Source: a virus
DNA: 39,334 nt
Direction: 5' to 3' (one strand)
Virus record (IMG/VR): IMGVR_UViG_3300022744_000059
Span: 1 to 39,334 of that record
This document shows, piece after piece, positions 2,106 through 19,613 of the stretch (positions are counted from its first letter, which is position 1; every line of letters starts with the position of its first letter). The notes below the pieces were generated by a model. That model was given only the letters and a program-made list of their open reading frames with translations, was not told the DNA's origin and searched no databases. A program made the translations under genes and the position numbers.

Positions 2106-2123
2106 CACACTTATCCACTTGTG

Positions 2124-2152
2124 TTGTCGGATATCTGAGATCGAAATAAGAT
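2124..2152 (+). promoter_or_regulatory. Candidate sigma70-like promoter for the tail sheath gene
   Basis: A TTGTCG box (2124-2129) and a TAAGAT box (2147-2152) are separated by exactly 17 nt. Each matches the consensus at 4 of 6 positions. It lies in the 142-nt non-coding leader, about 95 nt upstream of the sheath start, where extra transcription of an abundant protein would make sense. A phage late promoter of another type cannot be excluded. Confidence 0.3.
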
Positions 2153-2223
2153 CCAGATGCACTTTTCGGTCCTTCTCGAAGGCCGCAGATCCACACCCAC
2201 ACCCAGATTCCCTAAACCTTTTA

Positions 2224-2241
2224 GCGATCGAAATCGCGGAG
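2224..2241 (+). promoter_or_regulatory. Leader hairpin and strong Shine-Dalgarno of the sheath gene
   Basis: A perfect 5-bp hairpin (GCGAT, loop CGAA, ATCGC; 2224-2237) is followed directly by GGAG (2238-2241) six nt before the ATG at 2248. This Shine-Dalgarno decides the start: the open frame extends in-frame back to 2119, but that extension reads low-complexity sequence and lacks a ribosome site. The hairpin could keep the site open or protect the mRNA 5' end. Confidence 0.55.
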
Positions 2242-2247
2242 TACCCC

Positions 2248-5200
2248 ATGAGCCAAGGACCATTTCAAGCGTACGCACCCCCGGGAGTTTATACCCGCAC
2301 CCTCAATGATACGGCAGCCGCCAACCAAGTGGCCGGGCTTCGTATCCCAGCCATAATTGGCGTTGGCCAAGAAGAGCTTGAACAGCTCGAGGTAGAGCTG
2401 GTCAGAGGATCTAGCGCCGCTATCGATCAGGAAATCTTCGGGGAAGACGTTTCGGCCAGCTGGATCGTCAACGGCACCAATCCAAACAACCTGGTACTGG
2501 GTACACAGGACGGCACCATCGCGGCTTTCCGCGTACGCAACTTCCCCATCGTTGACGGTGAGGGTAACGGGCGTATCACGAACGACGTTCGCACGGTTTC
2601 CGTGACGGTAAACGGGGTTCCGGCGGCAGTGGGTTCCATTGTTGGGGCTTCTGGCGTGGTGACTCTACAGGTTCCGACGCAGCCCGGTGATATCGTTCGA
2701 GTCACGTATTTTTTCCACCGCGGCGATACCGCGTTTACGGATAACGTGAGCGCTCAGGTTACGGCGGCCAATGCCACCCTAGTCAGCCCTTCGGCTGGTC
2801 CCTTCACCTTCACCGCTACCTCAAACGTTCTGAATCTGATGGTTGGCGGCTCGAACGCGTCCGTAACTTTCCCTGTCGGGGCTTTGTCGGCCTCCACGGT
2901 CGCCACCACGATTTCCGCAGCTTTGATTCCAAACCTTCTGTCCTCGGTTTTCGTGGACAACGCTGGCGCAGAGCATTTGCATCTCACGTCTCCGGTGAGC
3001 CTCCGTATCTCGGAAGGCACCGCTAACCTAGTGATGGGTTGGTCGGCCGGTACCGCAACCGCCCGCAACGCCACCTTCCGAGTGTTTCAACGTCCGATCG
3101 TTGATGGTTCGGACGGCGGTATCACGACCACCGATCCTAGCAAAGTGGTAGTTAAGGTCAACGGGTCTCAAGTTTTGGCGAGTTCGGTGGATGGTGCCAA
3201 CGGTACCGTGACCCTAGCGTCCGCGCCCGCCCCCGGGGCGGTAGTGACGATTCAGTATTGGGCCAACACTTGGCAGGACACGTTTGACTATCTGCCTAAC
3301 AGCCTAGTCTCGACAGTTCTCCGTTGTGGTGTGGCTTCTAACCGCAGCGATTATATCCAGGGCGTGGACTTCATTGTGTCCAACCCTTCGACCGACGTGT
3401 CGGTGCTTCATTGGGGCGCTGGCAGCGAGGTTGTTGCCGGGGTGACGTCAATTGGTGCAAAAACCTTTGACGGATCGGTTGGAGGTCAAGTGGTGTCGAC
3501 CCTTGTGGACGACAAAATGTGGCTCGGCCTATGTTCTCGCGTGACTGATACTTCCACTATCCCGGCCGCGGTTAGCAAGACTGAGTTCCTGCTTCCTGAA
3601 GTACCCACCTTGGGTAACGGTCGAAACACCACCTTGGGCAGCGATGTCTTTGGTAGCGTGGCTAACAGCCGTCAGGGTCTAGTCAGCAATCGTCCAGACC
3701 TAGTCACCGTGTACACGGGGCGCAATCTGACCGACGCTCTCAGTCGTCCAGCGGTTGCGGTAAAGGAAGTGGTGGGGGCGGATCGTAAGATCACCCTCGC
3801 GGCTCCTCAGCATCCAGACTATAACGCTTACGCGACGTTCTACTACAGCCGTCTTACGGACGACACCTTCACGATCACCAATACGGTGGCGGGTCCGGTC
3901 GGGGTCGGTCAATACACCATTGATTCTTCGACTCGCAACGCGCCTCTCTATGCGGTTCGTTGGGTCAGCAAGAGTGGCTTGAGTGAGACGGTACAATGGC
4001 CCCGTGGCTCGGAATTGATTCCGGACGCGTATCATGCGGGCAGCGGTACTCCGGTTTCTGAGAACGTGACGGTAACGTTCACGCAGTCACTGGCCACTAA
4101 TGCGGCGTTCACTACTCCGGGTGCGGCCCCCTACTCGATTTACTCGGCGGGAAGCAACAACTTCTACATTGATGTGAACAATGTGATCGGTTCCGCTACG
4201 AATCTGAATGCAGCGGCGCCAGCAACTCTGATGGGCTCACCCATCGCGCTTTCTGCTGGTAATGTGATTCTCGCTACAGCGGTCACTCTGAATGTAGAGG
4301 TTGACGGGGTATCCTTCCCGGTAACCCTATCTTCCGGGCCAACTGCTCCCGCGGCAATCGTACTGGCCATCAATACGGCTATCGGTGCGGCAGGCGTGGC
4401 GGCAGCACAACTGATCGGAACATCTCAAGTGGTGTTCAGTGTCCAGTCGGCCACTGTCCCTAGCGTGGTGGATAGCGTATCGACTGTCCAGATCCTTGGC
4501 AGCACCGGTGAGGAGCAGCTTGGGTTCTCAGAGTACAAGAAGTTTTTCGGTACTCTGGGTGCGGTCAATAAGGCTCCTTCGATGTTGGGTTCCGTTGCGG
4601 GTCCTTTCAACATTACGGCTGGCCTAAACGACACTCTCAAGGTGCGAGTCGATGGCGTGGATCGAGTGATCACTCTGACGGCCGGTGCAAGCCGGACGGC
4701 GGCGAACGTGGTTGCCGATATCAACGCGGTAGTATCGAGCTTGGCTTCGGTCGGCACAGCGGCCGCCGCGAACAAGGTTAGACTCACGGGTCCGACCAAT
4801 ACGGCGGGTTCTGCTCTGTTGATGCAGGACGGCACAGCTAACGATGTACTCGGATTCACTCAGGGCTCGGTGGCCAATCAGGTGCTAGCGACTGCGGAAG
4901 AGATCGCAGCGGTACTAAATGCTTCACCGACCTTCTTTGCGCAAGGTTTTGCGTACGTCCAAGAGATCAGCGGCCAGAAGTATCTGACCATTGAGTCTTT
5001 GGTGGTGGGTACCGGTTCATCGATTGTTGCTAAGACATCGGTTCAATCGGCATTCAACCCAACCACTGGGTTGGGGATCGCAATCGGTGACGGGGATCTT
5101 GGCGAAGCGGCCAAGGACATGTTCACCGTCACTTCTAGCCATGCTTCAGGCTCGGCTGGTACTGGCGCCCCAGGCCAAACATACACGGACTCAAGAACCG

Positions 5201-6459
5201 GTCTCCGATTCACGGTCCTCCCAAGCACCACGGGTTCCTATACCTCTTCCGGGTCTTTCGTTCTGGAGGTTAGCCCGACCCATAAGGTCAACCCTTCGAT
5301 CCCAACGTATGCGGTCGGTGGCGTTGAGTTGTTGGTTACCAACACGGTGGATGTTGGGGTCAATGATACTTCGATTCTGACAACCTTTGACCCTAAGGGT
5401 GTTGAGCCTTCGGTCGGAGACTTCTACTACGTGAGTTACCTGTATGGAAAGCAGGACTACAGCCCAGCGGTGTTCCAGCAGATCAAGAACGTGGAAGCGA
5501 ATTTCGGCCGTATCTCGGCAGAGAATCGTCTGTCTCTTGGTTGCAGCCTAGCTAGCCAAAATGGCGCCGTGCTAATGGTAGCCAAGCAGGTCAAGAAGGT
5601 ACCCAACACCAACCAAGCCAACGTGCAGGATTTCCAAGCCGCGATCCAAGAACTTGCTTCCCCGCTGCGCGGCAATATCCGCCCCAACATTGTTGTACCA
5701 CTAGCTACGAATGCAGCGGTGTACAGCTATTTGACCAACCATTGCGAAGTTCAGAGCGGGATCCGCTACCAGAACGAGCGTATGGGCTTCATCGGATTCG
5801 CTTCCGGTACCTCACCCACGACGGCACAACAAGTGGCGCGCGGGTTGAACTCAAGCCGCATTGTGGCGTTCTATCCTGATTCGGCGGTCATCACCATCAC
5901 CGATTCAGTGGGTCGCAACTTTGAATCCCTGGTTGACGGCAGCTTCTTTGCTGCTGCGATGGCTGGTGCTGCGGTTAGCCCCGCGGTTGATGTCGCTACC
6001 CCTTATACACGTCGCCGTATTGTTGGTTTCACTCGGATCCCGCGTCTGCTGGATTCGGTGGAAGCCAATCAAACCGCGGTCGCTGGTGTCACCCTTTTGG
6101 AGGACTTGGATCCCATTATCCGGATCCGCCACGGTCTGACAACCAACATGACGAACGTGCTAACCCGCACCCCGTCTATCACTCAGATCCAGGATCACGT
6201 GCATCAACAGGCGCGCGCGGTTCTAGACAGCTTTGTTGGCGCTAAGTTCCTTGCCAACCGAGCCAACGAAGTGACAGTAGCCTTGACCGGCCTCTTCCGG
6301 TCTTTGGTGCAGGATGAGATCGTGAAGAGCTTCGGTAGTATCTCGGCTGAACCGGATCCAAACGACGTGAGCGTGCTGAACGTTGAGATGGCATACGTGC
6401 CCATCAACGAGCTGACCCACATCGTGCTGACCTTCAGCCTTCGGTCAAGATCCGCTTAG
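2248..6459 (+). CDS. Tail sheath protein, very large, with inserted beta modules
   Basis: 1403 residues, two to three times the usual phage sheath. The N-terminus (SQGPFQAYAPPGVYTR) is typical of sheath proteins. The C-terminal third (about 1070-1403) has the conserved sheath core: a helical region around LRGNIRPNIVVPLATN, then PDSAVITI, TPYTRRRIVGFTRIPRLLD and a final beta region. Between them lie insertions. Two related units (about 94-157 and 277-342) share FRV...PIVDG...VNG...GxVTL and end in a VxVTY/VTIQY strand. Several segments (about 184-275, 679-762, 784-873) resemble flagellar-hook IN motifs, with GPF, VDG, an INxxI/L helix and a closing LGF. Insertions in sheaths normally decorate the outside. 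It polymerises around the tail tube and contracts to drive it through the envelope. Arginine codons are mostly CGT/CGC. Confidence 0.9.
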   Translation: MSQGPFQAYAPPGVYTRTLNDTAAANQVAGLRIPAIIGVGQEELEQLEVELVRGSSAAIDQEIFGEDVSASWIVNGTNPNNLVLGTQDGTIAAFRVRNFPIVDGEGNGRITNDVRTVSVTVNGVPAAVGSIVGASGVVTLQVPTQPGDIVRVTYFFHRGDTAFTDNVSAQVTAANATLVSPSAGPFTFTATSNVLNLMVGGSNASVTFPVGALSASTVATTISAALIPNLLSSVFVDNAGAEHLHLTSPVSLRISEGTANLVMGWSAGTATARNATFRVFQRPIVDGSDGGITTTDPSKVVVKVNGSQVLASSVDGANGTVTLASAPAPGAVVTIQYWANTWQDTFDYLPNSLVSTVLRCGVASNRSDYIQGVDFIVSNPSTDVSVLHWGAGSEVVAGVTSIGAKTFDGSVGGQVVSTLVDDKMWLGLCSRVTDTSTIPAAVSKTEFLLPEVPTLGNGRNTTLGSDVFGSVANSRQGLVSNRPDLVTVYTGRNLTDALSRPAVAVKEVVGADRKITLAAPQHPDYNAYATFYYSRLTDDTFTITNTVAGPVGVGQYTIDSSTRNAPLYAVRWVSKSGLSETVQWPRGSELIPDAYHAGSGTPVSENVTVTFTQSLATNAAFTTPGAAPYSIYSAGSNNFYIDVNNVIGSATNLNAAAPATLMGSPIALSAGNVILATAVTLNVEVDGVSFPVTLSSGPTAPAAIVLAINTAIGAAGVAAAQLIGTSQVVFSVQSATVPSVVDSVSTVQILGSTGEEQLGFSEYKKFFGTLGAVNKAPSMLGSVAGPFNITAGLNDTLKVRVDGVDRVITLTAGASRTAANVVADINAVVSSLASVGTAAAANKVRLTGPTNTAGSALLMQDGTANDVLGFTQGSVANQVLATAEEIAAVLNASPTFFAQGFAYVQEISGQKYLTIESLVVGTGSSIVAKTSVQSAFNPTTGLGIAIGDGDLGEAAKDMFTVTSSHASGSAGTGAPGQTYTDSRTGLRFTVLPSTTGSYTSSGSFVLEVSPTHKVNPSIPTYAVGGVELLVTNTVDVGVNDTSILTTFDPKGVEPSVGDFYYVSYLYGKQDYSPAVFQQIKNVEANFGRISAENRLSLGCSLASQNGAVLMVAKQVKKVPNTNQANVQDFQAAIQELASPLRGNIRPNIVVPLATNAAVYSYLTNHCEVQSGIRYQNERMGFIGFASGTSPTTAQQVARGLNSSRIVAFYPDSAVITITDSVGRNFESLVDGSFFAAAMAGAAVSPAVDVATPYTRRRIVGFTRIPRLLDSVEANQTAVAGVTLLEDLDPIIRIRHGLTTNMTNVLTRTPSITQIQDHVHQQARAVLDSFVGAKFLANRANEVTVALTGLFRSLVQDEIVKSFGSISAEPDPNDVSVLNVEMAYVPINELTHIVLTFSLRSRSA

Positions 6460-6472
6460 TAATACAAACAAG

Positions 6473-6503
6473 TAGAGCCTAGGGCAGGTCGCCCTAGGCT
6501 CTA
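6473..6503. terminator. Bidirectional intrinsic terminator between sheath gene and minus-strand genes
   Basis: A perfect 13-bp inverted repeat (TAGAGCCTAGGGC, 5-nt loop, GCCCTAGGCTCTA) sits in the 47-nt gap between the sheath stop and the convergent minus-strand gene. On the plus strand it is followed by GCTTTAGTTCT; on the minus strand by a T-rich CTTGTTTGTATT. It probably stops transcription from both sides. Confidence 0.85.
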
Positions 6504-6506
6504 GCT

Positions 6507-6740
6507 TTAGTTCTCCAGACTCACCACTGGAGAGGTTACGGTGGCCTTCAAATCCTCTCGAAATATGTACACGCACCCTCCAATTTTTGGAAGTTCGGGG
6601 TACATAGCGATGTAATTCCACCACTCACCATCCGACATCTTAGTCTCGGAAGCTGTTTCCACTGATCTAAAGATTTGTCGGGCCTTGCGGCTATCGGGGT
6701 CTATTTCGTAGCAAGAACCTGATTGGGTGTAAAATTTCAT
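6507..6740 (-). CDS. Small hypothetical protein
   Basis: 77 residues, starting MKFYTQSGSCYEID, with two tryptophans in the middle and an alternation of short beta strands. No catalytic motif or membrane segment is visible and I do not recognise a family with certainty. The ATG lies 3 nt after the stop of the RNA-ligase part, with AGAGTGAAAG immediately upstream as a fair ribosome site, so it is probably the last gene of a short minus-strand operon ending at the shared terminator. Confidence 0.7.
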   Translation of the reverse strand: MKFYTQSGSCYEIDPDSRKARQIFRSVETASETKMSDGEWWNYIAMYPELPKIGGCVYIFREDLKATVTSPVVSLEN

Positions 6741-6743
6741 CTT

Positions 6744-7379
6744 TCACTCTGCTTTCAGTAGGTATCGATTGCTGATCACTTTGATGGACATTCTACCTCT
6801 AAGCTTAGAGCTAAACGTCCAGTTCTTGGGGCGAACCACAAGCCCTTCGCGCTCATTAGAAGTACCGTCATACTTGCCTTCCGCCAAAGCAAGCAAAGAC
6901 TCTAGGGTGTGGTTGAAACTTTCGCCTTCTTCGATCACCGGGGCTACCGGAATAGAGTACTTGAGGCAAAATTCTTCAAGTTCTGCTCGTGTGAGGTACT
7001 TCCGAGCGCTTTGATCGTAAAGGTCGAAAGCTCTCAGCTCGTGATGCTGTAATCCGAGTCGATTCTTTTGGATCCCGGGACCCACCACTTCGCCTTGCAG
7101 GGCGAGTGTTGAATTCTGTGCCATGATTTCCGGAAGCCCATATTTACGAGCCACACCCCAAAACACATTATCCTGATCTTCCTTGAGCATGTAATTGCGC
7201 GAGCAGGCCGAGAAGACACCCTCATGCATTAGGAAAGTCCCTGAGCTGCCATCGCATTTGAGTACTGCGTGATAGGGCAACCCACTCATTTCGTGGAGAA
7301 CCTTCAGTGCGCTTTGCACACGGGTCTCATCGGTTTTGGGGATCGAGATAGGGAAATTCCCCTGTCTTTGGCCGCCCAT
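6744..7379 (-). CDS. RNA ligase, catalytic (nucleotidyltransferase) part of a split gene
   Basis: 211 residues carrying the core motifs of a covalent nucleotidyltransferase. Motif I is KCDGSSG with the candidate adenylated lysine at residue 41. Then come a motif III-like segment (EGVFSACSRN), LQGEVVGPG (motif IIIa region), EGLVVRPK (motif IV) and SIKVISNRYLLK (motif V). The order and the last motif fit the DRB0094/Rnl5-type RNA ligases, which seal nicked RNA. In those enzymes an OB-like domain precedes the ligase domain; here it is encoded by the adjacent upstream frame (7388-7756). The ATG at 7379 may be a false start, since the frame upstream reads PPEVGVN, as expected of the linker. See the finding on the C5 run. 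Confidence 0.85.
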   Translation of the reverse strand: MGGQRQGNFPISIPKTDETRVQSALKVLHEMSGLPYHAVLKCDGSSGTFLMHEGVFSACSRNYMLKEDQDNVFWGVARKYGLPEIMAQNSTLALQGEVVGPGIQKNRLGLQHHELRAFDLYDQSARKYLTRAELEEFCLKYSIPVAPVIEEGESFNHTLESLLALAEGKYDGTSNEREGLVVRPKNWTFSSKLRGRMSIKVISNRYLLKAE

Positions 7380-7387
7380 ATTGACCC

Positions 7388-7756
7388 CTACTTCCGGGGG
7401 TCATATTTCACGACCCCAAGAAGCTCAGAAACGTCTGAACCTTCTTCCAACCCAGCCAACTCTGGGAATTTGTGGAGTGGGATCAGAAGACCTTGGCTCA
7501 AACAACCTCGCAGTTTTTTGGTTTTGATTCGAGCTTTGGACTCGGATGGGCGTGGACCACCACCCCACAAAAAGCAAAATTCCGATCGATCTGGCGCCAC
7601 TGAGTCAATTTCCAAGTAGAGAGCCAGATCACCAATCTGGAACTCTCCCTTTTTGACCACCATGATCCAACCCTCTACCGAGGCTGCTTCGATAGAGTCT
7701 GCCCCTTCAATGGGGCAGAGATTCACAACCTTTTGAATGCTGGCTAATTTCCGCAT
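7388..7756 (-). CDS. RNA ligase, N-terminal OB-like domain of a split gene
   Basis: 122 residues matching the N-terminal domain of DRB0094/Rnl5-type RNA ligases: start MRKLASIQKVVNLCPIEGAD, then a beta-barrel pattern with WIMVVKKGEF and ALYLEIDSVAP, then RIKTKKLRGCLSQGLLIPL, and a final GVVKYDPRK before the stop. In intact homologues this leads directly into the ligase domain. The stop is reached only because the frame changes within a run of five C (7396-7400, G on the plus strand). With one more C the two frames join into about 337 residues, close to the 342 of the Deinococcus enzyme. The start is well supported by the conserved N-terminus. Confidence 0.85.
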   Translation of the reverse strand: MRKLASIQKVVNLCPIEGADSIEAASVEGWIMVVKKGEFQIGDLALYLEIDSVAPDRSEFCFLWGGGPRPSESKARIKTKKLRGCLSQGLLIPLHKFPELAGLEEGSDVSELLGVVKYDPRK

Positions 7757-7764
7757 ACTTTGGG

Positions 7765-7793
7765 ATTTTAGCTCAAACGCATTTATACGTCAA
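7765..7793 (-). promoter_or_regulatory. Sigma70-type promoter of the RNA ligase operon
   Basis: On the minus strand a TTGACG box (plus 7788-7793) and a TAAAAT box (plus 7765-7770) are separated by exactly 17 nt, 5 of 6 matches each. Transcription would begin at about 7758, only a few bases before the ATG at 7756, so the mRNA would be almost leaderless. A weaker divergent plus-strand candidate (TTGGGA, 18 nt, TATACG; 7760-7789) overlaps it and could serve the gene at 7805. Confidence 0.6.
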
Positions 7794-7804
7794 GCTAATT
7801 GAGT

Positions 7805-8185
7805 ATGGGCGGGAACCTAACGAAATCGTTCTGGGAACAGCTTTCAGGTATTGTTGTTCCCGCCCTCTCCCTACAGATCCCCCCACAACCTCTAACTGAG
7901 GACGAATGGGGATTGTTCTGCGATCTCGCGTCTGTGTGGACCGAAGGCAACCCTACAGTCGAGCGCTGGATCGCGAAGCATGACCCCAACATAGTATCGA
8001 GCGTGGCAGAGGAAGTATTGGTTTCTCTCACTAATTCGGTGCTAGCTGAATGTGACGACTTCCCTGATCACCGAGCGCTTTTGCTGAGGGTTAAGGTTCT
8101 GGGACCTCTAGCGATGGTCGGTCAAGATCTGGAATATTTGAAACCCAGATTCTACCCCCAAAGGAAAAGTGGTCCCCTCTTTTAG
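7805..8185 (+). CDS. Hypothetical protein with its own terminator
   Basis: 126 residues from the ATG at 7805; an in-frame TTG at 7799 is less likely. Tryptophans and an amphipathic helical pattern (LTEDEWGLFCDLASVW, ALLLRVKVLG) look like a genuine soluble protein, but I recognise no family. It starts from a divergent intergenic region shared with the RNA ligase gene. Its last 78 nt overlap the 3' end of the minus-strand gene at 8108-8890. An intrinsic terminator begins at its stop codon, which supports it as a real transcription unit. Confidence 0.6.
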   Translation: MGGNLTKSFWEQLSGIVVPALSLQIPPQPLTEDEWGLFCDLASVWTEGNPTVERWIAKHDPNIVSSVAEEVLVSLTNSVLAECDDFPDHRALLLRVKVLGPLAMVGQDLEYLKPRFYPQRKSGPLF

Positions 8186-8890
8186 GTGTACGGAAAGAGG
8201 GGTTTTAGGCTCCCATACCCCGGTCCCCGTTTGATTCAATTGAGCGCATAAGACCTTGATTCTCCAAGGGACTTCTAAGGAGCGCCGGAATACCCCAACA
8301 CTCGTTGGAGTGGCCACTATCGCTTGCAGCGTACCGGCTCTAAGACCATATAGCCACCCACTCTGTAGGGTAGAGGCGGACAGAAAAGCGGTGGTCTCAT
8401 TCAAGGAGTAGGTGTAAATTTCGGGGTCCATTTGAAATCCCTCAAGAGACAGGATCCCCTCAAGGTATGCTCGAAGTTGGGTGGCCCCGCGGGTCAACAA
8501 TTCCCGCTTAGCCCCCACAGACAGCATGGGAGACATAGAGGACTGTTCGAGGCTTAGTAGGTACTCACCCAAACCTTGAGGCAACATAGACGCTCCCAGA
8601 ACCCCTTTGCGGACCACCAAATCCGCCCCATAGGCCAAGCGCGCCGCTTCTCCGGATATCGCTAGAGGTCTGTGCAAGAATAGGACCGCACTTACAATTG
8701 CGGACACATTCAGATTTTGAATCCCCATCATCGGCGGGAGCCTGCGCCCATCGATCAACGCCTCTAAAAATGTCTGCGCAGAATCGAATCGGTCTTTAGC
8801 TACAGGGTGGGTGAAATTGATGTCCACCCTGGAATCGGGGTCGGAGTCAAGAGTAGGGTCTAGCACTACGGTGAGGGTGACTGGCGCCAT
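8108..8890 (-). CDS. Hypothetical protein, 260 residues
   Basis: The N-terminus is beta-like (APVTLTVVLDPTLDSD, DINFTHPVA), the middle is helical and alanine/leucine rich (about 55-150), and the C-terminus is beta again. No motif, signal peptide or membrane helix stands out, and I do not recognise it. It is divergent from the HTH-like gene with only 28 nt between the two starts, so the pair may share a control region. Its 3' end overlaps the convergent gene at 7805-8185. Confidence 0.65.
   Translation of the reverse strand: MAPVTLTVVLDPTLDSDPDSRVDINFTHPVAKDRFDSAQTFLEALIDGRRLPPMMGIQNLNVSAIVSAVLFLHRPLAISGEAARLAYGADLVVRKGVLGASMLPQGLGEYLLSLEQSSMSPMLSVGAKRELLTRGATQLRAYLEGILSLEGFQMDPEIYTYSLNETTAFLSASTLQSGWLYGLRAGTLQAIVATPTSVGVFRRSLEVPWRIKVLCAQLNQTGTGVWEPKTPLSVHLKEGTTFPLGVESGFQIFQILTDHR
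8174..8206 (+). terminator. Intrinsic terminator inside the opposing gene
   Basis: A perfect 9-bp stem (CCCCTCTTT 8174-8182, AAAGAGGGG 8194-8202) with an 11-nt loop is followed by TTTT. It coincides with the stop codon (8183-8185) of the plus-strand gene and lies within the coding sequence of the minus-strand gene. On the minus strand the hairpin is followed by ACCACTTTT, so weak termination there is possible too. Confidence 0.75.
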
Positions 8891-8918
8891 TGTCTTGTTG
8901 TTTCTTCTCTAGGGTGAT

Positions 8919-9485
8919 ATGGCTGATGACATTGCAGATTTCCCCATAGTGGTACTGGAGGCAGACTTTCCAGAAAAAGTTGGAAAGACTGGACTTTTCG
9001 ACTTACTGATGCCGGTAGGAAATTCCGGGGTGGTGTTTACGGCTAACGTGCCGGGGGTTCTGCGGACCTATGGGTGTGAATTTACACCACAGGTCGAGCA
9101 TCTCTCGAGACTCAGAGCGGCCGCGGTATTAGTTCAAATGGGATTGATTCGTGGGGAAGCGTTCGAGTTTTTTAGACTCGCTTTAGGGGAAACTTCCGCT
9201 CAAACCGCTCTCCGATATGGTGTAACGGAGCCTATAGTTTTGGGTTGGGAGCAGAACGTCACCGAAATACCTTTTGAAGTGTGGCGCGACATGACGGTAT
9301 TGGTGTCAAAGGCAGCACAGGTAGCCTTCCCACACCAACCAATTCAGTCTCAAGACTGGAGACCTAGGCTAATACGGGTGTTCCCTATTTTACCTTTGCA
9401 ACACTCTCAAGAGAACACAGCAAGCTATCCCACTCTCTTAGACAACAGCGGTATCCCGGGCATAGAATGTTACCCGGGAACTTGA
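8919..9485 (+). CDS. Helix-turn-helix-like protein of unknown role
   Basis: 188 residues. Residues about 92-111 (TSAQTALRYGVTEPIVLGWE) match the pattern of an XRE-type helix-turn-helix, with a preceding helix at FFRLALGE. The regions before (acidic N-terminus, then a strand-rich part) and after (proline-rich C-terminus) are not recognised. It may be a transcription regulator, or a structural protein that borrowed the fold. AGGGTG lies just upstream of the ATG. The helicase gene follows 26 nt later, and the 260-residue unknown diverges 28 nt upstream, a site where such a regulator could act. The function is inference. Confidence 0.65.
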   Translation: MADDIADFPIVVLEADFPEKVGKTGLFDLLMPVGNSGVVFTANVPGVLRTYGCEFTPQVEHLSRLRAAAVLVQMGLIRGEAFEFFRLALGETSAQTALRYGVTEPIVLGWEQNVTEIPFEVWRDMTVLVSKAAQVAFPHQPIQSQDWRPRLIRVFPILPLQHSQENTASYPTLLDNSGIPGIECYPGT

Positions 9486-9511
9486 TCTGAACCGAAAAAG
9501 GATCTTACAGT

Positions 9512-12500
9512 ATGGCTTCTCCCGATCTCTCAGAGTTGGACCAAGAAATTGACATTGAAGACATTCAGGTGTCTGAATACATAGTGTTTTTGATGTCCTT
9601 GGACACTTACAAGAGATACTTGGAGGAAGCCCAACAGATCGAATCAGACCAAACTTTGGAGCGAGGTCTCAATCTGTTAAAGGCAGTGGATCGCAGACAG
9701 AAGGACGCTTTCGAAGCCTTTTTGAATGAAAAGTTGGAACTCCCAGCTCATAAGGCGATGTTGGCTCAAGCCATGCGGTTGCCCATGACGGCAAACAATA
9801 TGGCTCGCCGAGCCCTCAAGTTGAAGATGGTGCTCTCTCGCAATAAGGCGATGATCAAGCATGTGTTCGGGTCCAATCAGAAATCGATAAGGGCCGTGAG
9901 AGAGGCTTTTGACGCCGCCGGGATTCAGGACGCGGATGCCGCCCTGGAGAGACTAAGGGTAATTCCGTTTCTATCCAATAGGCGATTGGGCTCTTGGATC
10001 AAAGTGGCCGCCGAGACTGCCGGTCCCGGGTACGCCCAAAATCCAGTGAAAGCCAGCGCTCAGGCCGCCTCAGGATCTGAAGAGCTTCTAACCTCCAAGA
10101 TCGTAGCGCAGGGTGAGGCTCAAGAGGATTCGTCAGACTCATCCTTGGATCATGATATTGTGCTGGAACAAATCCAACACAACGCCACGAAGGCGGCTAA
10201 GGAAGCTCTAGAAGCATCAGGGGAGCCAGATGAGGCTCCTAAGAAGTCTGAAGTGGTAGGTATCGCGACTGCTGCGGTCATTGAAGCGATGACCGATCCT
10301 GAGAACCCGCGCAATATACCTGAGCCTCTCAAGACATTGGACCCGGAACAAAGATCGGCCGCACTTAGCGACGGCAGAGTATTGGTCGCGGCGGGCGCCG
10401 GAGCTGGAAAGTCCACCACCCTAGTATCGAGAGTGAAATATCTGATTCGAGAGAAGGGCGTCAACCCCTCCAAGATTTTGGTCACCAGCTTTAATGCAAA
10501 GGCTGCTGCGGAACTCAAACAGAAGATCGGCACATCTGCTGGCGCTGAAGCTCTAGAGCAAATGAGCGTAGGCACGATGCATGGTCTGTTCCGTAGATTC
10601 ATTACGGCGTACGGCACCAAATCCGAAAAGAAGGCGATGGGGGATTCTTTCGTCTCAGGCGGGGATTCCGTGGCTAGAGCCGTAAATCGTATTTGGGCTG
10701 AATGCTACCCCGAAGGCACCTCTGCAGAGAAAAAGGTGCCCAGTTTGAAAAAGGCTAAGCTGGCGGTATCTGGCTGGCGTGGTGACGACAAAACCCCAGA
10801 GCAGGCGAAGCTAGAGGCCAAAACCGAAGAAGAGATGGACTACGCTCTTTGGTATGAGATGTATGAAGGACTCAAAGGGGCTATCCCAGGATGGAAGCCT
10901 CCTTGTGGTACTTCACGCAGCTACGAATCCTTCATGTCACGTTGGCGCCCTAAGGGGGAACGATTGGGGGATTTCAGTGACATGGTCAGCTTCTTCTTAC
11001 AAATTTTGAAGCGGAAGCCATTGGTCAAGAAAGAGATCCAGAAGATGTACCAACACATCTTGGTGGATGAGTGTCAGGATTTAGATGGGGTCCAGAATCA
11101 AATCATAGAGTTGATCTCGGAGCACATCAAACCAGAATCCAGGGATAGCAGCATTTGGCTCGTGGGCGACGACAAACAGAGCCTGTACGAATTCCGTGGT
11201 GCTCGGCCTAAATTGTTCGTAGACCGTTCTAACAACCCTGACTGGAAAGTTCGGATTATACGAACCAATTACCGATGTGAGCCTGAGATAGTCGAAGCAG
11301 CCAACAAACTGATTGCCAACAACTCAGGGCAGATTCCTATGGAAGCTTCCCCATCCCCTTCTAAGTCACGGGGGGCTGGCTCGATCAAAGTGGAAAAACC
11401 TCTGGATGATGCGGATTCGGCTATAACTGCAGTACGACAGATTAAACAATCTATCGCAGACGGCAATGATGTATCTAGCCACGCGATCCTCACTAGAACC
11501 AACAAGGAACAGCACGCCTTTGAGACCGCATGCATCATCAGTGGTATTCCTTATGCCCGCAGTGGAGCCTCCAGCTTCCTCGGCAGCCCGGAGACCAAAG
11601 CATTTTTGAGCTATGTGCAGTTGGCTACTGGGGATGATTTCGTAAAGATGCAGAAGGCATTGGGGGAGGTGATCAACCAACCTAACCGGTTCTTTATGCG
11701 AGACCCTTCAGCAGCCGGTAAGGCAGTAGAACAGACCCTCATGCAATACGCTCGCCGTATCGGTAAGCAGCTCAAGGATGTAAGCCCCTTGGGGGCCCTA
11801 AACGATTCCAGATTTGTGCGAGAGCTGGCCAGTAATTTGACGGGGGGAGCCTCCGGGTTCAAGTTGGACAAGGCCATCGAATCCATCGAAGAGCTTCAGT
11901 ACGAGTTAGGACAAATGTCTGCTAACACTCAGAATGAAGGGTACAAGACAACAGATCTGTTCAATGATATCCTATCTCTGAAGGGGAAGGCATCCAAATA
12001 CAACCCTAGGACCGGTAAGTCAGATTTCGTAGACGTCTCTTTCAGAGATAGCCTCAAGACTGATCTCAAAGAAGCCCCAGAGGACCCGGATTCCGATGAA
12101 ACCCCAGGAGATGATATTGAAGACGATAAACATTCTGGATTGGGTAATGTGTCGTTTCTTTTTGAGCTGGCCAAAGTAGACCCAACGGATGAGGACGACG
12201 TGTCTTTTGACCCCGGGTCACCTCTAGGGTTTAGATCCAAGATGGAACGATACTCCAAAAAAGCACGAGATCTTCGGATTGACGTAGACAAATGGAACAA
12301 GGAACAAGAGGATCTACCTCCTGAGCAGAGAAAAGCCCCTCCTGGGGTATTTCTATCTACGATCCACAAGGTCAAAGGGTCTCAATGGCAGAACGTTTTT
12401 GTCAGCATGCCTAAGGGTGTGTTCCCAATGGAAGTACGGCCTAAACCGGGTGAGCTACCTGACTTTGAGAAGATAGAGGCTGAGAAGCTGGCTGAACGAC

Positions 12501-16778: not shown

Positions 16779-19613
16779 ATGAATGACATCGAAGAGGAAG
16801 TGTTGCGTTGGAACCTGGAAGTAGACCCCCGGAAGGCCGTTAGGGGCTTCTCGCAATTCCAGAAAAAGACCCTTGCCGACATTTCTAAGGTGGACAAAAA
16901 GTTCAAGGACATGAACCGCGGTATCGTGAAGTTCGGGTCCCAACTGTTCAGCGAGTCCGCCAAAATGGCTCGGAAAAGACTACCAGAGGTCAAAAAGGAA
17001 CTGGAGGGCCAATACAAGGAACTGAACTCTTTGGTTTCCAAGTACGAGATCCAGATGGAGAAAAAGTGGCGGGAAATCCAATCCCAGGGGGAGGGTTCGG
17101 ATTCCAAAACCACAGCCAAACTGAAGAAGGAACTAGAAGAGTTGACAGGGCTCAAAGAGTCCATGGAATCTCAACTGGAGAGCACGGGAGGACGGCTCGA
17201 AGGGCTCGAAGGGCTGAGCTTTGACACCGACGCTCTAGTGGAGTCTGCCAAAGAAGCAGGAGAAGAGTTGGCGGAGCCTTTGGAAGTCGCCTTGTCCAAG
17301 GATGCGATGTTGGTGTTCAGGAGAGGTTCTGAGCTATTGGCAGGAGGGCTGAAAAAAGGGCTTGGCAATGCGGGCACCTACTTCAAGAACATGTCCGCCA
17401 AGAAAATGGAATCTGGAAACCCAGTCCACAAAGCCATGGGCAAAATGTCCGGAGTGATTGGTGGGGCTATGGAGAAGCTAGCCGGCCTTGGACCCATCAT
17501 ACAGATGGCCAGTGGCTTCATGGCCAGCTTCATCAAAATTGCCCTAGACGCTGAAGCCGCCGTGAAGGGGTACAACAAAGAATTGTTAGCGGTGACCTCT
17601 ACCGGCGGGTATCTGGCCGACAACTTTTCGGACGTGTCCAAGTCTAGCAATGCTCTCCTAAAGGATCTGAACGACGCGAGGGCCGGTGCGCTAGCGTTCT
17701 CCAATGTTCAGTGGGGTATCTCTAAGGAAACCGCAGCTAGCTTTCAGACCGCTATGGCCCAAGAAGGGGTCAGCCTCCGGAATCTTGGCAAGGAGACCGA
17801 AAGAGCAACCGGGTATGCGACCGATCACGCCAAAGTGATTCAAATGGGCGTGGCCTATTCAAGAGCCTTTGGATCCAGCCTAAGTGAGGTGACGCAACTT
17901 CAAGGGGAGATGATGTCCGAGACTGGCGCTTCCCTCGATACGGTACAGGCTAGTTTCCAAAACATCACCCAATCCGCCCAGGAGTCTGGGTACGCGGCCA
18001 ACAAATTCTTCGGGATCGTCAAAAGCTTCTCGAGCGATCTCACACTCTTTACGTTGCGTATGGAGGAAGTAACCAAAGTGCTGAAGGTTATGGGGCAGTC
18101 TATGAGCCCTAGATCAGCACAAAAGTTCATGCAGACCTTGGCTCAAAGGTTTACTGGAGGGGTTCAAGACAACCTCAAGTTCACCATAATGGGCGGTGAG
18201 GGTACTACGCGTGATATTGCTCAGAAGGATCTGACTCAGAAGCTTGCTGGGTTGAGGCAAGACGTAGCTAACGCTATGGGCGCAGGGAACGAGGGCAAGG
18301 TTTCCGAGCTATTCAAGCTGCTAAGTGATCCCAAGAGAGACCCTAGAGCATTGGCGAAATGGCAAGCAGAAAATCTGTCTCCGGAGATGAGTGGTATTAA
18401 GGAATCAGTGCAAGACGCGGCACTCATGATCAAACGCTTGGCTGATAATACCGCGATCGACACTGCCTCGGTGTTGGATCAGCTATCCCCCCTAGCCAAG
18501 ATGCAAATCCTGCAACAGAACATCCTCAAACTGACGGGTAAGAAGTTTGACGAATTGACTGGGATCGATTTAGCGGCTGCCGAAAATAGTGGCATCGCCT
18601 CTGCTAAAGAGGTACGAGAGAATGTGAAATTCTACAACGCTATGTTGGCGGCGCAGGAGGAAATGGCCGTCAAGTTTGAGAAGGGACTAGACACCGAAGA
18701 GGATCGCCGCAAGGCGAGAGCTTTAGGATTGAACATCAACTCAGGTACTAGAGCCCAGACCGCGGAGGAACTGAGAACCTTGTTCAAGTCTAAGGGCGGA
18801 GAACAGAAGTTCTGGGACGTCCAATCAGCTACTCAGCAGGATCTGTTGGCAGCTTCAGTTAAACAAATTGACTACCAACGAGAGACTTCCAGTTTCCAGA
18901 CTTCCACCCTAGACAAGCTTTCGATGTTGTCAGACATCTTGCTAAACAAGATCTATGACATCCTGACTAGTATTTGGGATACCCTCAAGAGCTTCTGGCG
19001 CGACGTGACTTTCCAAGGTGGTTCCAGAGAGAGTAAGGTGGAGCACGCTGCAGAGGACACCGGAAACGAAGAAATCATCCGAGCCTTTAAATCTAAGGCA
19101 GATGTTTTCGAAGCCACCAAGGCCGTCATCCAAGGCCCAGCCCGCCAAATGCTCCACGACATAGAGAGCTTCAAACGAGAGTCCGAGGCACTGAAAGCCA
19201 GACTTGAATCGTCGAAAGACGATTATGAAATGGCTGCAATTCGAAAACGACTGGATGAGTTGGAGCCCTTGCTGTCGAGCGGGCTTAGTAATCTAAACGA
19301 AACCAACCTGTGGGATCGTGCCTCGCTACGCAAAGATCAGGGCACTGGGTTGATCTCTGTCATGAACACTTTAGGTCACATGAGTAAGCTGATGCCCAAG
19401 CAAATGGAGTCCCCGTTTAGTGGGTCTTTGACTCCTGCCCCAGTATCTCCGATAGTCACCACCGCCTCTACCAATACGGCGCCACAAGCAACCCCACAAG
19501 CCCAGCCACCCATTAGAGTGGAAGTAGCGCTTGCGCCAGGGGCAGAGAAAGTCATAGATGCCAAGGTGACTGACGGGATCGCTAACCACTACCGCAACCG
19601 GAATAATCGCTAA
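16779..19613 (+). CDS. Tail tape measure protein
   Basis: 944 residues, mostly helical. The N-terminus has coiled-coil segments (about 65-145, KKELEGQYKELNSLVSKYE and KLKKELEELTGLKESME). A hydrophobic glycine/alanine-rich stretch lies at about 226-259 (GLGPIIQMASGFMASFIKIAL), typical of tape measures that insert in the host membrane. The central part is alanine- and glutamine-rich helices; the C-terminus is a proline/threonine linker (about 885-915) and a short strand-helix end. Length times 0.15 nm per residue predicts a tail of about 140 nm, using the known rule for these proteins. The stop overlaps the next ATG (TAATG). Confidence 0.85.
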   Translation: MNDIEEEVLRWNLEVDPRKAVRGFSQFQKKTLADISKVDKKFKDMNRGIVKFGSQLFSESAKMARKRLPEVKKELEGQYKELNSLVSKYEIQMEKKWREIQSQGEGSDSKTTAKLKKELEELTGLKESMESQLESTGGRLEGLEGLSFDTDALVESAKEAGEELAEPLEVALSKDAMLVFRRGSELLAGGLKKGLGNAGTYFKNMSAKKMESGNPVHKAMGKMSGVIGGAMEKLAGLGPIIQMASGFMASFIKIALDAEAAVKGYNKELLAVTSTGGYLADNFSDVSKSSNALLKDLNDARAGALAFSNVQWGISKETAASFQTAMAQEGVSLRNLGKETERATGYATDHAKVIQMGVAYSRAFGSSLSEVTQLQGEMMSETGASLDTVQASFQNITQSAQESGYAANKFFGIVKSFSSDLTLFTLRMEEVTKVLKVMGQSMSPRSAQKFMQTLAQRFTGGVQDNLKFTIMGGEGTTRDIAQKDLTQKLAGLRQDVANAMGAGNEGKVSELFKLLSDPKRDPRALAKWQAENLSPEMSGIKESVQDAALMIKRLADNTAIDTASVLDQLSPLAKMQILQQNILKLTGKKFDELTGIDLAAAENSGIASAKEVRENVKFYNAMLAAQEEMAVKFEKGLDTEEDRRKARALGLNINSGTRAQTAEELRTLFKSKGGEQKFWDVQSATQQDLLAASVKQIDYQRETSSFQTSTLDKLSMLSDILLNKIYDILTSIWDTLKSFWRDVTFQGGSRESKVEHAAEDTGNEEIIRAFKSKADVFEATKAVIQGPARQMLHDIESFKRESEALKARLESSKDDYEMAAIRKRLDELEPLLSSGLSNLNETNLWDRASLRKDQGTGLISVMNTLGHMSKLMPKQMESPFSGSLTPAPVSPIVTTASTNTAPQATPQAQPPIRVEVALAPGAEKVIDAKVTDGIANHYRNRNNR

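Follow-up and report, generated by a model that had tools for sequence, protein, structure and literature searches.

An RNA ligase gene in two frames

The stretch of DNA analysed here, called the window throughout, is a 39,334-base IMG/VR record, and on its minus strand it carries a two-gene cassette consisting of a ligase gene and a 77-aa open reading frame (Table 1). The ligase is spread over two frames, ORF1 and ORF2, which lie end to end on the minus strand and are one base out of register. ORF1 matches PF21189, the PHA02142 OB domain, above the cutoff (E 2.1e-28), and ORF2 matches the RNA_ligase domain PF09414 (E 1.1e-24). On the 398 positions of phrog_968, ORF1 covers 7-139 and ORF2 covers 154-393, which places both in one family with the domain order kept. 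Similarly, residues 4-125 of the single-chain NgrRnl (PDB 5cot) are matched by ORF1 (E about 5e-26), and residues 131-338 are matched by ORF2 in a profile match. Because each half lines up in order with single-chain relatives, NgrRnl among them, their pairing is far from chance, and ORF1 and ORF2 are the two halves of one RNA ligase of the DRB0094/Rnl5 type.

When the frame is restored for comparison, the read-through protein is 337 aa long, against 340 aa for NgrRnl/DRB0094. Residues K167, D169, G170, E222, E304, G305 and K326 (read-through numbering) fall in invariant or nearly invariant columns of a 167-row alignment, and codon bias, as well as the motifs, is retained in both halves. NgrRnl from Naegleria gruberi (PDB 5cot and the 6vt series) and DRB0094 of Deinococcus radiodurans (DraRnl) share with the window ligase the N-terminal OB domain, the nucleotidyltransferase domain, their order and length and the catalytic motifs; unlike in these enzymes, the two domains of the window ligase are in different frames as sequenced. 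The phage ligases of phrog_968 (PHA02142), for example those of Aeromonas phage 25, Sinorhizobium phiM12 and Synechococcus S-CREM1, belong to the same family, with about 35-38% full-length identity, yet each one sampled is a single uninterrupted gene. Thus, of the features of an Rnl5/DRB0094-type ligase, the OB domain and the catalytic domain with its motif residues are present, whereas the single polypeptide is missing, the frames differing by one base. Judged from these comparisons, the window gene is a member of the Rnl5 family by descent and, as sequenced, a broken copy.

Table 1. Features of the ligase cassette and of the junction between its two frames
Feature	Position	Strand	Description	Evidence or measure
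ORF1	7388..7756	minus	122 aa; N-terminal OB domain of Rnl5-type RNA ligase	PF21189, phrog_968 and NgrRnl matches
ORF2	6744..7379	minus	211 aa; catalytic (nucleotidyltransferase) domain belonging to the same ligase, with motif residues intact	PF09414, phrog_968, NgrRnl, motif columns
Junction CCCCCGGAAGTAG	7388..7400	minus	13 nt; only stretch permitting the frame change	all three minus-strand frames read
Strong hairpin GCTTCTTGGGGTCGTGAAATATGACCCCCGGAAGT	7390..7424	minus	C5 run in its 3' arm	-21.4 kcal/mol; z -2.5 in 71 nt
Candidate reinitiation site	7377..7389	minus	AGGGG Shine-Dalgarno-like run and ORF2 ATG, 8 nt past the ORF1 stop	anti-SD pairing -5.9 kcal/mol
77-aa ORF	6507..6740	minus	downstream of the ligase, same cassette	no family or relative found
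Terminator-like inverted repeat	6473..6503		13-14 pairs; cassette end, between convergent genes	
Sigma-70-like promoter match	7765..7793	minus	upstream of the ligase	10/12; regional match number at chance level

The junction between the OB and catalytic domains

From 7402 to 7388, the minus strand reads GAC CCC CGG AAG TAG, with the C5 run at 7400-7396. A TGA stands in the -1 frame just before the C run, and the TAG of the 0 frame lies at 7390-7388; the shift is therefore confined to the 13 nt of CCCCCGGAAGTAG. Read through, the linker is KYDPPE, and the nearest relatives have KWEPPA, KYEPPI, KYEPPA and KYAPPE at this place (a K-Y/W-E-P-P linker). The preliminary description had read the junction in the same way, with a one-base shift, had assigned the OB and catalytic domains to the two minus-strand frames, and had expected a product of about 337 residues with intact catalytic motifs; the family matches, the restored frame and the alignment bear out all of these points.

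The linker between the two domains is also crossed, at 7390-7424 of the minus strand, by a long imperfect inverted repeat, the arms of which are encoded by the conserved peptide LGVxKYxPP. In 37-nt folds, the window has only about three further sites of equal stability. The relatives do not form this hairpin despite the conservation of LGVxKYxPP, and the long C run is, as a rule, missing from their linkers. A C run placed inside a strong inverted repeat favours real slippage as well as sequence error.

Relatives of the ligase and the setting of the cassette

The set of related loci numbered 168, namely 80 viral and 80 genomic loci from a profile search plus eight phage loci. At 166 of them the two domains share one open frame, and a frameshift split of the Rnl5 gene was seen at none of the 168. 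The two exceptions are of other kinds, an insertion and a loss of the OB domain. In the first (IMGVR_UViG_3300000558_000434, about 365-1500), about 1.1 kb with a LAGLIDADG-like ORF separates the OB and catalytic domains, and the locus was accordingly rejected as a split ligase; the insertion is probably an intron with a homing endonuclease, but a comparison with Rfam recognised no intron family there. In the second (an Archangium MAG, JAUXRX010000023.1, 1339-2125), nearly the whole OB domain is gone in frame and the catalytic domain is intact; the locus may lack the OB domain naturally or result from a join made in assembly. Among 60 phage records sampled across 328, every match was a single unbroken piece. 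Records of Nankokuvirus with two features under the match seemed at first sight to be natural splits, a reading that was rejected, as the match there is to a single gene, which overlaps its neighbour by 8 nt. In the samples examined (168 loci and 60 of the 328 phage records), a split Rnl5 gene is therefore not a feature of the family.

Homologues of the 1446-aa and 181-aa proteins of the window are found in many contigs, and since several of these contigs are 200-529 kb long, the window is probably part of a huge-phage genome. The cassette is missing between the same neighbours in four related contigs (L178, L184, L188 and L232). In L178, no ligase lies between the 1446-aa gene and the helicase, and the whole of that 86.8-kb record gave no match. 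In L184, L188 and L232 the neighbours are ordered as in the window, and a plus-strand gene closely follows the 1446-aa gene, the gap being 99 nt in L188 as against 1345 nt in the window; in L188, this plus-strand gene and the first minus-strand gene after it have the window genes at 7805-8185 and 8108-8890 as their homologues. A full Rnl5 ligase is present in two of 44 related phage records, in both cases at another site and in a single frame. Because the cassette is missing at the same site in syntenic phages, the ligase is, on this comparison, accessory cargo.

Two further observations concern this region. The interval that separates the 1446-aa gene from the UvrD-like helicase (6459-9512 in the window, with counterparts in L178-L257) is variable, with 161 to 9784 nt between the homologues. 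The plus-strand gene at 2119-6459 aligns with its L178 homologue in a conserved manner only from Met44, and its true start is probably the ATG at Met44 (2248) and not the TTG at 2119.

How the ligase frame may have been lost

We consider it somewhat better than an even chance that the ligase frame was lost through a recent, real frameshift, and rank this ahead of an error in the sequence, which is possible but clearly less probable. An ordinary Rnl5 ligase gene would have been carried in an accessory minus-strand cassette of a probable huge phage, and a net one-base change at the C run of the linker that joins the OB domain to the catalytic domain would recently have broken its frame. The strong inverted repeat, one arm of which holds the C run, is a plausible hot spot for polymerase slippage, which may have caused the change. 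The change would then be present in the phage and not in the assembly alone; the gene as sequenced would give a free OB domain and, at most via reinitiation at 7379, a separate catalytic domain, and the full ligase would not be made.

A frame-break survey of five conserved genes, two of which had served to pick the contigs, in related IMG/VR contigs gave no breaks in 349 copies over 689 kb, with a sensitivity of about 80% for planted one-base deletions. A base-call error in the ligase is therefore a priori rare, the survey suggesting an upper bound of about 0.5-1% for the chance that a given 1-kb gene carries a consensus indel. As the whole window was scanned for oddities, the probability of an error anywhere in it matters as well, and a single error within the coding sequence, about 37 kb in all, would not be very unlikely (95% upper bound roughly 0.2, estimated from the same survey). 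Fresh inactivation is favoured because no frame breaks occur in the 689 kb, while the ligase belongs to an accessory cassette missing from syntenic relatives; the intact catalytic motifs also fit a recent event. It also counts against a recent mutation that the nearest ligase found is about 49-50% identical, a near-identical ligase or junction not having been found by exact-peptide and exact-DNA searches, and that the C run lies in a strong inverted repeat, where assembly and base-call errors gather.

A sequencing or assembly error would mean that the Rnl5 ligase of the phage is an ordinary one, intact and 337 aa long, and we rate this possibility as real, if distinctly below an even chance. 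The shift is a lone one at a homopolymer that lies within a strong inverted repeat, the catalytic residues are all intact and the close relatives are all in frame, as this explanation would predict. Yet no interruption is seen in the window's other large genes despite 77 C or G runs of at least five inside the scored genes, and the 689 kb of comparable contigs with no break put an error in the 1-kb ligase gene a priori under about 1%.

It appears improbable that the gene encodes a two-chain ligase, with ORF2 made by termination-reinitiation at the ATG at 7379 and acting either by itself or together with the free OB domain supplied in trans. The ORF1 stop and the ORF2 ATG are only 8 nt apart, the anti-SD pairing of the ORF2 start (-5.9 kcal/mol) ranks near the top of the 25 window starts scored, codon bias and motifs are kept in both halves, and the Archangium locus suggests that an OB-less copy may exist; however, no such split occurs in the 168 loci or the 60 sampled phage records, and the ATG at 7379 may be incidental, since the linker around it is coding sequence in every relative. 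In DraRnl, the N-terminal module plays an important part in nick sealing and adenylylation, and one would therefore expect ORF2 by itself to be a weak ligase. That the phage deliberately keeps the split, as a two-chain Rnl5 ligase obtained by coupled reinitiation at 7379 or by rare -1 slippage, seems to us slightly more doubtful still.

Programmed -1 frameshifting at C_CCC_CGG, giving a free OB domain and a full ligase, is the least probable explanation and most unlikely to hold. Programmed sites such as those of dnaX and the phage tail-assembly genes likewise have a short homopolymer where two frames overlap, and at the window junction the P-site tRNA on CCC can re-pair one base back and a strong hairpin overlaps the slip site. 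Unlike those sites, however, the junction lacks a tandem slippery heptamer (X_XXY_YYZ), since the A-site tRNA for CGG re-pairs poorly with CCG; the slip site lies within the hairpin rather than ahead of it, no significant stimulatory structure lies 5-9 nt downstream (z -1.35, with 22 of 200 shuffles folding as well), and neither the hairpin nor the C run is common to the relatives, none of which is frameshifted among the 168 loci and 60 phage records. In addition, the in-frame GAC CCC CGG AAG occurs in an uninterrupted 944-aa gene of the window at 16779 (identical 12-mer at 16824, codons 16-19, provided that the start of this gene is correctly called), where a -1 slip would lead to a stop after four codons; in-frame C_CCC_C sites number 12 in all in the window, and the site is not avoided in ordinary genes. 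With no slippery heptamer, no significant downstream structure and no comparable signal in relatives, canonical -1 frameshifting was rejected.

The preliminary description had left three options, of which error and fresh inactivation survive, with inactivation favoured, whereas -1 slippage yielding two products, which it thought would be new for the family, finds no support. It had also held that scattered stops in the ligases of relatives would mark the gene as a plain pseudogene; the relatives proved intact. The evidence most likely points to a recent inactivating mutation, less likely to a sequence error, and not to a new mode of making two proteins from one gene. As it stands, the finding matters little, being one more Rnl5 ligase gene that is apparently broken. 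Were a two-chain form indeed maintained, it would offer a natural split enzyme in which the role of the OB domain could be tested. What the locus does provide is the placing of an Rnl5 ligase as accessory cargo at a variable site in a poorly known group of huge phages.
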